Shown here: positions 8,986 through 28,440 of the stretch, in pieces
Layout of the letters: each line of letters starts with the position of its first letter
Numbering within the stretch: the first letter of the stretch is position 1
Assembly (NCBI GenBank): GCA_015066625.1
Contig: SVOC01000007.1
Coordinates: 49,304 to 113,303, forward strand
Source of the DNA: Oscillospiraceae bacterium
Lineage (GTDB): Bacteria; Bacillota; Clostridia; Oscillospirales; Acutalibacteraceae
DNA: 64,000 bases
Reading direction: 5' to 3'
The notes under the pieces: generated by a model
What the model was told of the DNA's origin: nothing
The model's database searches: none
Seen by the model: only the letters and a program-made list of their open reading frames with translations
Translations under genes and position numbers: made by a program

Positions 8986-9088
8986 CAATTTTTTGAATTT
9001 AATCGTTATTTTGGAGCTTTGCGGCAAAAATTATGCACAGGTTTTCCACCTGTGCGTGAAAACTTTTCGGTTTTCGGGTAATTTCTTC

Positions 9089-13940: not shown

Positions 13941-15002
13941 ATGAAAAAATCAGCAAATCTCGCAGTAATCGCAGTTGCGGTTGTGGCAATATGCGTTGCC
14001 GCCATTGCAGGTGTGCTTGTTTTCAAGGCAAACAACGGCCCTGCCGTAGAGCCTGACAGCACATTCGATTCAACAGAATACGCTTACGCTCCCGTTGAGC
14101 CCACCACCGAGCCTTCAACATTCCAGGCAATCATTGACCTGACAACTCAGGTTCTTACAGACACTTATGTGCCTTCAACACAAAAGCCTGCCGAAAAGCC
14201 CACTCAGGCTGAAAGCACAACAAAGAAGCCCGCTGAATCAACAACAAAAACCGAGGAAACAACAGCACCCCAGAAGGGCGAGCTTGACCCCGACGAAATG
14301 GAACATTCAAGCGGCACAAAGCGTCCCGTTACTGCAAGCAAAAACCTGCCCAAGGATATGAGCCTTGCCGGTCTTTACGGTTCGGGTTATGACGTTATCG
14401 GTCTTAAGCCCTACATATTCAACGATGATAAAGACCCCAACTGCATGCAGAGACACTTCGGCTATAACCCCGGTTATGATGCGGGCGCAAGCCTTATCGA
14501 CTTCACAATCGAAACTACAAGAATTGATTTCAAATACGAAAACAAGCCTTACAGAATTCAGCTCTGGAAGGGTCAGTATATTTCCGGTGATATCGGTACC
14601 GTAGGCGGTGAAATCGGTCTTTACACCAGAACTCCCGGTAAGATTTACCTTATTCCCGAGCATTACGACTGTGCTGCGGAAGAAGATTGGCTTAAAATGG
14701 AAATGACTATTTTCTGGAATGAGTTTGACGACGGCAGATATCTGCCTCAGCTTACCAGAAACTATGATGATTTCTGGTGGCCCACAGGATTTGTTGACGG
14801 TCAGCTCAAAAACAGATTTGACTCCAACGACCTTCAGCTTCTCGGCAGAATCACTTTTGAAAGCGAAGAGCAGGCACAGCTTTTTGCAGAGGCTCTCGGC
14901 AAGAAGGGATTCACCAAAGTTTCGACCTTCAATCCCACAGTTGCAGATACCTATAAGATTTACGGCAAAGATGTTATTTTCATCTGGCAGTACATCAGAT
15001 AA
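13941..15002 (+). CDS. Membrane-anchored extracytoplasmic protein, DUF4474-like (paralog 1)
   Basis: Function unknown. A 353-residue protein with an N-terminal signal anchor (about 7-30), a Thr/Pro/Lys-rich linker (about 45-120, repeats such as TTKKPAESTTKTEE), and a C-terminal domain (about 130-353) that I match tentatively to the DUF4474 family. Shared landmarks with the paralogs at 15075 and 27424 are IQLWKGQY, GGEIGLYTR, HYDCA-x-EDWLKMEM and a WWPTGFVDGQL aromatic block. The linker resembles a cell-wall spanning stalk, so the C-domain probably acts outside the membrane. It starts 45 bases after ssrA with AGGAGG. No catalytic motif was recognised. Confidence 0.85.
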   Translation: MKKSANLAVIAVAVVAICVAAIAGVLVFKANNGPAVEPDSTFDSTEYAYAPVEPTTEPSTFQAIIDLTTQVLTDTYVPSTQKPAEKPTQAESTTKKPAESTTKTEETTAPQKGELDPDEMEHSSGTKRPVTASKNLPKDMSLAGLYGSGYDVIGLKPYIFNDDKDPNCMQRHFGYNPGYDAGASLIDFTIETTRIDFKYENKPYRIQLWKGQYISGDIGTVGGEIGLYTRTPGKIYLIPEHYDCAAEEDWLKMEMTIFWNEFDDGRYLPQLTRNYDDFWWPTGFVDGQLKNRFDSNDLQLLGRITFESEEQAQLFAEALGKKGFTKVSTFNPTVADTYKIYGKDVIFIWQYIR

Positions 15003-15074: not shown

Positions 15075-16154
15075 ATGGGTAAGAAAAAAATTCTCATCCT
15101 CGCCATCTGCGCCGCAGTTGTAATTGCAGGCTCCGTAGCAGCCGTTGCAATTCTCAGAGGCGGTCCCGGCAAAGCAGGCGACGAAACAACAACCTCATCA
15201 ACAGCTCCTCAGACCGAATACGATTATAACAACTATAATCCCGGTGTTTACGAGCCCGTTGATACATCCGACACATCGGATGACAACATTCTCACAACAT
15301 TCCAGCAGATTCTTGACGTAACAAAGGATGCCGCAAGCAAAAAACCCACCAAGGCAAACTCCAACAAGAATCCCACCAAGGCGAATTCCAACAACAAAAA
15401 GCCCGCCAACACCACTACAACCAAGAAGACAGGCACTGTTTCATACCCCGGTGATGACAAGCTCGTTGACCAGGTTATCGGTCCCGACGGTGATGAGTTC
15501 CTCGGTTACAGATACGATGCCGCAGGCGACTTCTACTACACCGACGATAAGGACTGCTGGCAGTCAAACGCAGGCTTCAACGAAGTTTACGACATTATGA
15601 CACCTGTGACCGCTATGTATATCGACGTTCTTCGTATCCGCTTTACATACGGTGACAAAGACTGGATGATTCAGCTCTGGAAGGGTCAGTACGGCTTCCT
15701 TCTTGTAGGTGCCGAAATCGGTGTTTACACCACAGATGCAGGTACATATGACGGCGAAATCGGCGATGTTAACCACTATGACTGTGCCGATAAGGAAGAT
15801 TGGCTTAAAATGGAAATGACCTGTTACTGGAAAGAAAACAACCAGGGCTCATATAAGAAGGCATTCCACAGAGAATACACCGAATATTGGTGGGCAACAG
15901 GCTTCGTTAAGGGTCAGCTTAACAAGTATACAGCTCCCAGAACAGAACTTAAGATGAAGGCAAGAATCACCTTCAAGTCAGAAAAAATGGCTGACCTCTT
16001 CACAATGGGTCTCAGACAGTCAGGCTTTGCACGTGCACTCGGCTCAAATCAGCTTGCCGACGACTCATTCTATCAGAGCGGTGCAGACGTATGGTTCCTC
16101 TGGCTCACCAAGAACCACGAATGCTTCCCCGGTTATGAAGGAAAAAATTCATAA
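15075..16154 (+). CDS. Membrane-anchored extracytoplasmic protein, DUF4474-like (paralog 2)
   Basis: Function unknown; a tandem paralog of the preceding gene. The 359-residue protein has a signal anchor (about 4-27), a low-complexity stalk with a short duplicated unit (KPTKANSN twice) and poly-Thr, then the shared C-terminal domain with GDKDWMIQLWKGQYG, GAEIGVYTT, HYDCADKEDWLKMEM and YWWATGFVKGQL. The C-domain ends in WFLWLTK, matching the VFIWQYI end of paralog 1. The ATG follows GCAGGAGG. It lies 72 bases after paralog 1, so the two are probably co-transcribed. The sheltered aromatic-rich fold suggests binding, but the ligand is unknown. Confidence 0.85.
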   Translation: MGKKKILILAICAAVVIAGSVAAVAILRGGPGKAGDETTTSSTAPQTEYDYNNYNPGVYEPVDTSDTSDDNILTTFQQILDVTKDAASKKPTKANSNKNPTKANSNNKKPANTTTTKKTGTVSYPGDDKLVDQVIGPDGDEFLGYRYDAAGDFYYTDDKDCWQSNAGFNEVYDIMTPVTAMYIDVLRIRFTYGDKDWMIQLWKGQYGFLLVGAEIGVYTTDAGTYDGEIGDVNHYDCADKEDWLKMEMTCYWKENNQGSYKKAFHREYTEYWWATGFVKGQLNKYTAPRTELKMKARITFKSEKMADLFTMGLRQSGFARALGSNQLADDSFYQSGADVWFLWLTKNHECFPGYEGKNS

Positions 16155-22120: not shown

Positions 22121-22150
22121 GCAGGTATCAATACGATACCTGCATTTTTA
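22121..22150. terminator. Terminator between sufB and ogg
   Basis: Nine-bp perfect stem GCAGGTATC / GATACCTGC with loop AATAC, followed by ATTTTTATT. The A-rich stretch before it (AAAAAATAA) makes it usable for ogg on the opposite strand too. Confidence 0.88.
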
Positions 22151-22969
22151 TTGCGTTCTCCGCCAGTGGAATAAATATTGCTGTGCGATACCCCGAACAC
22201 CGTTTGTGCATTCGGGCAAACCGTCGGGATACATTTCCGCCATAATACGCTTTACCCACACATCAACGGGAAATGCATCAACCTTACCGAAGCCGTAGAG
22301 AAGGGCGCACTGAGCAACCTTTTCGCCTACTCCCTTGATTTTTATAAGCTCATCTCTGCCCTCATCAAGACTTGCAGCATAAATCTTTTCAAAATCAATT
22401 TCACCGTTTGCAACCTTCTGAGCCGCATCAACAATATATTTTGCTCTGAATCCTGCCCTTATGGGTGCGATGCCCTCTGTTCCCGCCTCAGCTACCTTTT
22501 CGGGTGAAGGGAATGAATAATCATCACCACCCAGATGCTCACCCAGCAGTCGGCAGAGGCGGTCAATGATACCTTTTATACGGGGTATGTTGTTATTTGC
22601 GGAAATTATGAATGAACAGATTGCCTCCCAGGGCTCCTGCCTGAGAAGGCGGATTCCGCTGCATTCCTCAACTGCTTTTTTCAGGTGAGGGTCTGCCGAA
22701 AATCTTTCACAAAGTGCTCCGTAATCACGGTCAAGGTCAAAATAAGGCTTCCATATGTTTTCAAAATCTTCAGCATTTGTGCCTTTGAAGTTTATTTCAT
22801 CACCCTCCTGCACAAGCGTAAGCGGTCTGCCGAAAGCAACGCCGTGCCACTCATTTTCGCCGGTTTGTACCCATCGGAATGCCTGACCGCAATCGAGAGT
22901 CCGTGCAAGGTCAAAGCAGGAATTTTTTACTGATATCTCTTTTTCACAAGTCAGAATTTCAGTATTCAT
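22148..22969 (-). CDS. ogg: 8-oxoguanine DNA glycosylase / AP lyase (OGG1-like)
   Basis: Removes 8-oxoguanine from DNA in base-excision repair. The 273-residue protein has the N-terminal FDLARTLDCGQAFRW block of bacterial OGG1 homologues and the helix-hairpin-helix IKGVGEKVAQCALLYGFGKVDAFPVDVWVKR, containing the catalytic Lys (GVGEK) and Asp (PVD). The track start at 23116 would add 49 unrelated residues and run through DnaA boxes; the ATG at 22969 (MNTEILTC) follows GGAG with 6-base spacing. It diverges from a small membrane gene, and nth, another HhH glycosylase, is just 0.6 kb away. Confidence 0.9.
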   Translation of the reverse strand: MNTEILTCEKEISVKNSCFDLARTLDCGQAFRWVQTGENEWHGVAFGRPLTLVQEGDEINFKGTNAEDFENIWKPYFDLDRDYGALCERFSADPHLKKAVEECSGIRLLRQEPWEAICSFIISANNNIPRIKGIIDRLCRLLGEHLGGDDYSFPSPEKVAEAGTEGIAPIRAGFRAKYIVDAAQKVANGEIDFEKIYAASLDEGRDELIKIKGVGEKVAQCALLYGFGKVDAFPVDVWVKRIMAEMYPDGLPECTNGVRGIAQQYLFHWRRTQ

Positions 22970-23287
22970 CACATTCTCCATTTTGTAATATTTTAGCATT
23001 GTCCACAAAAAAGTTGCTATAAATCCAGCGACTTTTCTCGACATTTTGTAAAGTTTGTATAACCTTTGGTATATTCTTTTATAGAAAAATAAAGTTTTCC
23101 ACACTGATTTTTCCACAAAAACAAGGCTTTTCAGGGGGAGTTATCCCCCTTTTCCACACGGTTATCCACTTTTTCTGTGTGAAAAGCCGGCTATACAGTT
23201 TGTATATTTATCTTCCCGTTTTTGCAGAATAATTACACTTGGTTTTGCCAAAAATAACATAGAATTGCAGTGAAAGGGGAAGTATTT
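22970..23287 (+). other. DnaA-box array in the ogg upstream region
   Basis: This gene-free stretch holds three perfect TTTTCCACA boxes (23095-23103, 23109-23117, 23150-23158), TTATCCACT (23162-23170), TTGTCCACA (22999-23007) and a weaker TTATCCCCC (23141-23149), all on the plus strand. An AT-rich stretch (about 23041-23094) borders the array on its left. This is denser than the region beside dnaA. It could be an origin, a DnaA titration or regulatory site, or a DnaA-controlled promoter region. Confidence 0.7.
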
Positions 23288-23560
23288 TTGATTAAAGGTG
23301 TTAACCGTCAGGTGGTTGAAATTTCGCAGACTCAGTGCGAATATTTTGAAAAGGTTCTGTTTTTCATAAAGCCCGAATATTCTGCCGTCAGCGAAGGTGA
23401 TTTGAGGGAACGAGCCTCGATTATTGCTCAGAGTGTGGGTATACCTCCTGCGGCAAGGCTGAGAAAAAGCAGAATCCGTCTTGCGCTGAGCATGAGTGCC
23501 GCCGCCTGTGCGGGTGCAGTAGTCAGCGGTACGATTTTTCTTCTGACCTCATTCTTTTGA
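23288..23560 (+). CDS. Small conserved-looking membrane protein
   Basis: Unrecognised, 90 residues. The N-terminal part (MIKGVNRQVVEISQTQCEYF, then KVLFFIKPEYSAVSEGDL) looks like a small alpha/beta fold, a basic region RLRKSRIR follows, and one membrane helix (about 68-88) ends the protein, so the N-terminus is probably cytoplasmic. The TTG at 23288 has an AAAGGGGA site 8 bases upstream and is preferred to the track GTG at 23270, which has no such site. The last 12 bases overlap the 3' end of nth on the other strand. It lies next to the DnaA-box array. No function is proposed. Confidence 0.65.
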   Translation: MIKGVNRQVVEISQTQCEYFEKVLFFIKPEYSAVSEGDLRERASIIAQSVGIPPAARLRKSRIRLALSMSAAACAGAVVSGTIFLLTSFF

Positions 23561-24178
23561 GCTTTTGCAGAAATTCTTCATAACGCATTCTGTGCACTTG
23601 GGTCTGCCCGAAACGCAGGTGTCCCTGCCGTGAAGCACACAGCGATGGCAGAAATCGTTGCTTTCTTCGGGAGGAAGAATCTCACGAAGCTTCATTTCCA
23701 CCTTGTAGGGGTCTTTTGTTGAAACAAGACCCAGAAGATTTGAAATTCTTATCAGGTGTGTATCCGCAACAACGGCAGGCTTGCCGTAAACATCGCCCAC
23801 AATAAGATTTGCGGTTTTTCTGCCTACTCCGGGCAGACTTGTCAGGTCTTCGATGTTATCGGGCACCTTGCCGTCGAAATCCGCAAGCATTTTTTGGCAC
23901 ATTCCGATTATATCCCGTGCCTTTGCCCTGAAGAATCCGCAGGAATGAATAATTTTCTCCACATCCGCAACATCTGCGGCGGCAAAATCTTCCATAGTTT
24001 TATATTTTGCAAACAAATGCGGTGTTACAAGATTGACCCTTGCATCTGTGCATTGCGCCGAAAGTCGGGTAGCAATAATCAGCTGCAGAGGGTTTTCTGC
24101 GTTCAGGGAGCATATGGAATCGGGGTATTTTTCTTTCAGTGCATTAACTGCAAGCAAAGCTCTTTCTTTATCTGTCAT
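23549..24178 (-). CDS. nth: Endonuclease III
   Basis: DNA glycosylase/AP lyase that removes oxidised pyrimidines. The 209-residue protein has the HhH motif LTSLPGVGRKTANLIVGDVYG with the catalytic Lys in GVGRKTA, and the catalytic Asp in VVADTHLIR. A C-terminal [4Fe-4S] loop has the spacing C-x6-C-x2-C-x5-C (CVSGRPKCTECVMKNFC). The ATG at 24178 is favoured over the GTG at 24187 because GAGG lies 8 bases before it. The cluster ties the enzyme to the Fe-S machinery encoded 2 kb upstream. It converges with the small membrane gene, with a 12-base 3' overlap. Confidence 0.95.
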   Translation of the reverse strand: MTDKERALLAVNALKEKYPDSICSLNAENPLQLIIATRLSAQCTDARVNLVTPHLFAKYKTMEDFAAADVADVEKIIHSCGFFRAKARDIIGMCQKMLADFDGKVPDNIEDLTSLPGVGRKTANLIVGDVYGKPAVVADTHLIRISNLLGLVSTKDPYKVEMKLREILPPEESNDFCHRCVLHGRDTCVSGRPKCTECVMKNFCKSSKE

Positions 24179-24288
24179 TTTTCGCACCTCACATTCACAT
24201 CTGACAACAATTATATTATAATGAGTGAAAAATTTAAAGACATAATTTAAAATTACTGTGAATTTTCAGCATATACAAATAAAAACAG

Positions 24289-27423: not shown

Positions 27424-28440
27424 ATGAAAAACAAAGTGATACCCATTGCAGTGGGTGCTGTTGCCGTGGCTCTTGTTGCAATTGTTGCGGTGCTTGGCAT
27501 AAAAATGAACGTCAGCCCTGCCGTAGAGCCTGCACAGGGCACAACACAAGCCGAAACTACTGCAGAAATCACATACCCCGTTTATGAGGAAACACGGTTT
27601 TCTCTGCCTGATCTGACAGAAACCGAACAGACAACCGTAACCGAAACGGAAGCTTCATCAACCGCACCGTCAGAAACCGAAAAGGCACCGGAATCAACGA
27701 CCCTTGCCGAAAAGCTGACTCAGGTTGCAACAACGGCTGTAAACAAAGTGTTTAAAGAGGTTTTTGCACTGCCCAAAGCACCACAGTATGTGCCGCCCGA
27801 TACAGACCTTGACTTTGCAAAAATCAATCTTGCTTCATACAAATACAACCCTGACGGCAATTTTTATTACACCGATGATAAGGAATGCTGGCAGAAAAAC
27901 TTCGGCTTCAATGAAGTTTACGATGCCTTTGCACCTGTTACCATGATGTATTATGATACCGTGCGTACAACCTTTGATTACGGCGGCAAGGAATGGATGA
28001 TTCAGACCTGGAAGGGTCAGTACGGAGTAATGTTCGTAGGCGGTGAGGTGGGTGTTTACACCAGACCTTTGGGCAGTATCGGTTCCCATTATGTCTGCGC
28101 CGACAAGGAAGACTGGCTTTATATGGAAACCGCCTTTATGTGGGATGAATACGGCACCGGCGAATACCGTGCGGTTTTCAACCGTGATTACGACAAATAC
28201 TGGTGGGCAACGGGCTTTGTTGTCGGTTTCCCCAACGGCAGTCTGCGCAAAACTCTTACGGAATTCCGCCTTGTGACACACATCACCTTCAAGGATACGG
28301 AAATGGCTGATGCCTTCTGCAAATCATTTGAAGCAAACGGCTTTACAAGAGTTTCAAAGCTTAACAACAATTCACCCGACACCTTTGTTCAGGTTGGACC
28401 TGATGTTGCCTTTGTGTGGCAAAACATCAATCATAAATAG
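27424..28440 (+). CDS. Membrane-anchored extracytoplasmic protein, DUF4474-like (paralog 3)
   Basis: Function unknown. The 338-residue protein has the same plan as the genes at 13941 and 15075: a signal anchor (about 5-27), a Thr/Glu-rich stalk (about 35-100, ETEQTTVTETEASSTAPSE), and the C-terminal domain with YYTDDKECWQKNFGFNEVYD, KEWMIQTWKGQYGVMFVGGE, HYVCADKEDWLYMETAFMW and YWWATGFVVGFPNGSL. It is closer to paralog 2 than to paralog 1, to judge from the shared YYTDDK and GFNEVYD blocks. Strong ribosome binding site (AAAGGAG). The terminator immediately downstream is shared with serA. Confidence 0.85.
   Translation: MKNKVIPIAVGAVAVALVAIVAVLGIKMNVSPAVEPAQGTTQAETTAEITYPVYEETRFSLPDLTETEQTTVTETEASSTAPSETEKAPESTTLAEKLTQVATTAVNKVFKEVFALPKAPQYVPPDTDLDFAKINLASYKYNPDGNFYYTDDKECWQKNFGFNEVYDAFAPVTMMYYDTVRTTFDYGGKEWMIQTWKGQYGVMFVGGEVGVYTRPLGSIGSHYVCADKEDWLYMETAFMWDEYGTGEYRAVFNRDYDKYWWATGFVVGFPNGSLRKTLTEFRLVTHITFKDTEMADAFCKSFEANGFTRVSKLNNNSPDTFVQVGPDVAFVWQNINHK

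Follow-up and report, generated by a model that had tools for sequence, protein, structure and literature searches.

The intergenic region upstream of ogg in an uncultured gut bacterium houses a cluster of DnaA boxes that is probably a conserved, non-origin cluster of the kind known from B. subtilis. Such a cluster would titrate DnaA or control initiation, and it may also regulate the local promoters. How initiation is limited in Gram-positive bacteria without the E. coli control loci is not settled. B. subtilis has six DnaA-box clusters outside oriC, whose joint deletion leads to early initiation (PMC5295017, PMC13220808). Our literature searches found little on conserved non-origin clusters outside B. 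subtilis, no paper linking DnaA boxes and oriC to ruminococci, and nothing relevant joining DnaA boxes with 8-oxoguanine glycosylase.

DnaA boxes in the ogg intergenic gap

The window, meaning the whole 64,000-nucleotide stretch of DNA analysed here, comes from a 2.37-Mb genome assembled in 32 contigs. The gap between ogg and a small gene contains six plus-strand DnaA boxes, five of them good and one weaker, which together span 172 bp (Table 1). The last three boxes form a triplet with 9/12-bp spacing. A first-pass annotation of the window had reported three perfect boxes and three variants on one strand within about 170 bases, beside an AT-rich stretch and between ogg and a small membrane gene. 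We found every one of these boxes, and the start codons of the two genes do lie on either side of them. The AT-rich stretch measured 20% GC (23050-23095), against 34% for the gap as a whole.

Table 1. Positions in the window of the ogg gap, its DnaA boxes, the neighbouring genes and the dnaA region
Feature	Coordinates	Strand	Remarks
Two box-like sites, TTATGCACA (9031) and TTTTCCACC (9042)	9031..9050	+	rpmH-dnaA gap; the only ones in that gap
dnaA	9199..10521	+	GGRDRTTI recognition helix; next gene is ftsY rather than dnaN; no second copy found in the genome
ogg, 8-oxoguanine DNA glycosylase	22148..22969	-	ATG at 22969; Pfam OGG_N (E 1.7e-28) and HhH-GPD
Gap between divergent ogg (-) and 90-aa membrane-protein gene (+)	22970..23287		houses the DnaA-box cluster
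DnaA box TTGTCCACA	22999..23007	+	not conserved; changed even in the closest relative
AT-rich stretch	23046..23095	.	TTTGTATAACC..GGTATATTC motifs; no DnaA-trio
DnaA box TTTTCCACA, conserved fourth box	23095..23103	+	55 bp from the second (middle) box of the triplet
DnaA box TTTTCCACA	23109..23117	+	not conserved; the closest relative has TTTCCCACA instead of the box of this species
Triplet box 1, TTATCCCCC	23141..23149	+	weak in this genome; TTATACACA or TTATTCACA in some relatives
Triplet box 2, TTTTCCACA	23150..23158	+	
Triplet box 3, TTATCCACT	23162..23170	+	
Small-gene promoter-like element, GTGAAA-18-TATATT	23179..23208	+	consensus match only
Small gene, 90-aa protein MIKGVNRQVVEIS...	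23288..23560	+	TTG start at 23288; hydrophobic C-terminus; no Pfam family
nth-like endonuclease III	23549..24187	-	Pfam HhH-GPD (E 4.9e-24)

To judge the density of boxes, we simulated the window 200 times under an order-3 Markov model. The ogg gap holds four matches to TTWTCCACW on one strand within 75 bp, where the simulated maximum was 1, and five matches to TTDTCCAC within 175 bp, where the maximum was 2. Chance repeats were rejected because this density exceeds that of every simulation. TTWTCCACA occurs 61 times in the whole genome, and a genome-wide scan found two of these perfect sites within 600 bp of each other nowhere but in the ogg gap. We also considered a structured RNA in the gap; this reading was dropped because all Rfam matches were sub-threshold (the best, Yfr17, scored 28.4 bits vs a gathering score of 50).

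Among the aligned relatives, the ogg cluster is conserved throughout the genus and in a sister clade; more distant members of the order had no cluster at ogg. The boxes of these genomes fall into three classes: CCAC, which includes this species, TCAC, and CAAC/CGAC. The first-pass annotation had proposed looking for the boxes in sister genomes. There, the triplet is kept in the aligned relatives and the 23095 box in those of the CCAC class, while the 22999 and 23109 boxes are not conserved.

Position of the replication origin

The first-pass annotation had read the array as either the true oriC or a control locus like datA. An origin at ogg, or one half of a bipartite origin shared with the recR-dnaN gap, would be in keeping with same-strand boxes adjoining an AT-rich stretch, an arrangement also seen at the Firmicutes oriC2/incC with its basal unwinding system (BUS) in B. 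subtilis and C. difficile. One genome (G023) also has ogg and dnaN 28 kb apart on a single contig; elsewhere they lie on different contigs. However, the box-GC-DnaA-trio module of oriC2/incC is absent from the ogg gap and present in the same genome's recR-dnaN gap. The latter carries a separate box array, the spacing of which is conserved, and, towards dnaN, the sequence ATTTCAACA-CCCCC-TACTATTACTACTATAATTA, which consists of a box, a C-run and a DnaA-trio, the module of the BUS (PMC6669920, PMC8287927). Its trio is nearly equal to that of C. difficile, CACCTACTACTATTACTACTATGA (PMC7561715). The box-C-run-trio element was present in the recR-dnaN gap in 17 of 17 same-genus genomes scanned at both the dnaN and ogg gaps; a DnaA-trio was found in the ogg gap of none of 40 genomes scanned.

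Gene content and base composition also distinguish the two sites. On contig C11, dnaN (G000:C11:74277) lies in the order dnaX, recR, dnaN, recF, and about 11-13 kb from there are mnmG, rsmG, noc, parA, parB and a pair of perfect parS palindromes (the gene names are our reading of the translations). The ogg site is linked to none of dnaN/recF, parS, parAB or mnmG/rsmG, all of which are on C11. In 10 of 10 genomes GC skew is higher on the right of dnaN than on its left, and C11 has a local skew minimum near dnaN; these values come from 20-kb windows in draft assemblies and are supporting evidence rather than proof. At ogg there is no consistent switch: the 20-kb difference is about 0 in four of six genomes, -0.03 in G023 and +0.06 in G008, where the right arm is only 11 kb. 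The neighbourhood of dnaA likewise shows no consistent switch: three genomes had differences of +0.02 to +0.04, and G021 had -0.01. Finally, the CAAC/CGAC clade has an intact dnaA-dnaN locus with its own boxes and a trio-like element, and carries the ogg cluster separately.

Since boxes, DnaA-trio, parS/parAB linkage and skew switch come together at recR-dnaN, and the ogg gap has boxes only, we conclude that the predicted oriC is the recR-dnaN gap and does not lie beside dnaA. An origin at ogg was rejected for its missing trio, its inconsistent skew and the location of parS and dnaN elsewhere, and we regard origin function there, whole or bipartite, as very improbable. The rpmH-dnaA gap was rejected because it has only two weak boxes and no consistent skew switch nearby. 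Of the two readings in the first-pass annotation, the oriC half therefore falls and the control-locus half is favoured. These results correct the expected position of the origin in these genomes. On gene order and motif content, the usual Firmicutes dnaA-dnaN pair is split in this genus, and the putative unwinding element was left with dnaN.

In the window, the ogg cluster is 13.9 kb from the start of dnaA. Wherever both genes were found in same-genus genomes, dnaA and dnaN were on different contigs (the order is rpmH-dnaA-ftsY in the genome of the window), and in G017 and G021 dnaA is at least 200 kb from either contig end. All genomes are draft or metagenome-assembled sequences. Other members of the order (L112 in G036, L122 in G029, L127 in G026) differ from the window's genus in having, close to dnaA, dense clusters of perfect DnaA boxes in mixed orientation.

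Box classes and the DnaA recognition helix

The TCAC class comprises G004, G007, G010, G018, G019, G021 and G016, in which the triplet lies beside nth; the CAAC/CGAC class comprises G047, G049, G050, G052 and G059. When we compared the class of the boxes in the ogg gap with that in the dnaN gap across 25 genomes, the mean overlap was 0.66 vs 0.35 after permutation, and 0 of 20,000 permutations were as high, a statistic that ignores shared descent and is to be read as two events. On the Ogg tree each derived class is a single change, giving about two independent clade-level switches, with support for TCAC being weak if the long-branched G016 is included. Each switch rewrote several boxes at two or more loci.

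The recognition helix of DnaA differs with box class. It reads G[GN]RDRTTI in the CCAC class, GGRDRTAI in the TCAC class and GRNHSTV in the CAAC/CGAC class. Base-contacting residues of E. coli DnaA include D433, H434 and T435 (PMC7561715), and their equivalents fall in the stretch of the helix that differs by class. Two genomes depart from the pattern: G019, of the TCAC class, retains RTTI, and its boxes at dnaN are mixed; G013, with a canonical GRDHTTV helix and mixed classes at dnaN, fits no class cleanly.

Because the letters of the boxes change in step at ogg and oriC, together with the DnaA recognition helix, the ligand of the ogg boxes is most probably DnaA. The repeats might instead be operators of another regulator that resemble DnaA boxes, given that other conserved motifs (TATACAnnnTGTATA, TTTACAAATTGT) lie in the same gap. 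Such a regulator would be hard to reconcile with box letters that switched with the oriC boxes and the DnaA helix in two clades, and we give this explanation very little weight.

A broader reading, which we find plausible but lean slightly against, is that DnaA recognition was rewired at least twice in this uncultured group of Oscillospirales type (RDRTTI/CCAC, RDRTAI/TCAC and RNHSTV/CAAC or CGAC), and that both oriC and the clusters outside it changed accordingly, with those clusters outliving their flanking genes. The clusters would then be a selected, genome-wide network for the control of initiation and not promoter operators. The natural variants of box and helix would provide a series for reading the DnaA-DNA recognition code. 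That the clusters are kept genus-wide while their neighbours change, and change letters along with oriC and DnaA, ties them indirectly to DnaA.

Local promoters, other clusters and a model for titration

The cluster lies between divergent genes, and the -35 side of a promoter-like element starts 9 bp past the last box. TATACAnnnTGTATA, around the -10 of this element, is conserved in the alignment of relatives. DnaA could therefore act here mainly as a local transcription factor that ties expression of ogg, the small membrane protein or both to replication status, as at sda or ywlC in B. subtilis. DnaA of that species is an activator of sda and an apparent repressor of several operons (PMC4447404). 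In the TCAC clade boxes remain upstream of ogg. The fate of the flanking genes argues against this explanation. The small gene adjoins ogg in the CCAC and CAAC/CGAC clades; the TCAC clade has lost it together with the TATACAnnnTGTATA element, so that nth is directly before ogg, and has kept the triplet. In a single genome, G016, ogg lies elsewhere; the triplet is retained next to nth with an unrelated lipoprotein-like gene after it, so neither ogg nor the small gene flanks it. Retention of the triplet in the TCAC clade and G016 suggests that the cluster does not depend on any one promoter for its persistence, and makes it unlikely that the cluster is an operator serving just the small gene or just ogg.

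Further evidence comes from sites elsewhere in these genomes. In ten genomes of the genus, tandem TTWTCCAC pairs are confined almost entirely to ogg, the dnaN gap, the gap 3' of nagA and the mutS2-ylxM gap. The two further clusters outside the origin, at nagA and mutS2-ylxM, are conserved as well. The nagA cluster lies downstream of nagA, facing the 3' end of a giant gene; the two genes are convergent, so there is no promoter for DnaA to control. One of the top DnaA sites in B. subtilis, gcp/ydiF, also lies between convergent gene ends (PMC4447404) and is a precedent for the nagA site. Where present, the nagA and ylxM clusters undergo the switch of box class in the TCAC clade as well; neither was found in the CAAC/CGAC clade. 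Genomes carry several clusters: the genome of the window has the ylxM cluster (contig C13, about 68.8 kb) besides that at ogg, with no nagA found, and relatives have the nagA cluster too. Taking these sites together with the flanking genes, we consider a mainly transcriptional role unlikely, though of appreciable weight. Given the divergent genes and the abutting promoter-like element, some of the conservation at ogg could be due to promoter control alone.

We therefore return to a non-origin cluster that titrates DnaA or controls initiation as the preferred explanation. We infer DnaA binding, titration and any transcriptional effect at ogg from sequence comparison. Several DnaA molecules would load on the same-facing boxes of the triplet and on the neighbouring box, with nucleation on the 9/12-bp triplet, and DnaA held there would be kept away from oriC. 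Together with at least one other cluster (mutS2-ylxM, and nagA in relatives), the ogg cluster would set the free DnaA available for initiation at recR-dnaN. With divergent genes on its two sides, the cluster may, when bound by DnaA, modulate ogg and the small gene as well.

The closest known systems are the B. subtilis clusters at gcp/ydiF, ywcI/vpr, ywlC, yqeG/sda and yydA, which are likewise intergenic multi-box clusters away from oriC, several per genome, at divergent promoters or convergent gene ends. The genes differ (ogg, nagA and mutS2-ylxM here), as does the position of dnaA itself, which in the genus of the window is away from oriC. E. coli datA is also a non-coding DnaA-box cluster outside oriC, a likeness that carries no claim of sequence relation. 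It acts through IHF and hydrolysis of DnaA-ATP (PMC5295017). We replace the first-pass term datA-like, which would imply datA-specific features (an IHF site and stimulated ATP hydrolysis), with B. subtilis DnaA-box-cluster-like; the control-locus reading itself is favoured by a conserved cluster whose boxes co-vary with those of oriC and with the DnaA helix.

Several minor features were observed along the way. The nagA-gap cluster (L202:4016-4415 in G020; L203-L208) is flanked by CTTTAC/GTAAAG palindromes and TATAC motifs. In the mutS2-ylxM gap (L238, L239, L234), the box cluster is followed downstream by a promoter-like element (TTGACA-TATAAT) ahead of ylxM-ffh, and the leader of the same loci contains a TGTAAAG..CTTTACA hairpin. 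Elsewhere in the window, three similar secreted or anchored proteins (13941-15002, 15075-16154 and 27424-28440) have Thr/Lys/Pro-rich linkers and a common C-terminal region (YWWATGFV or similar).
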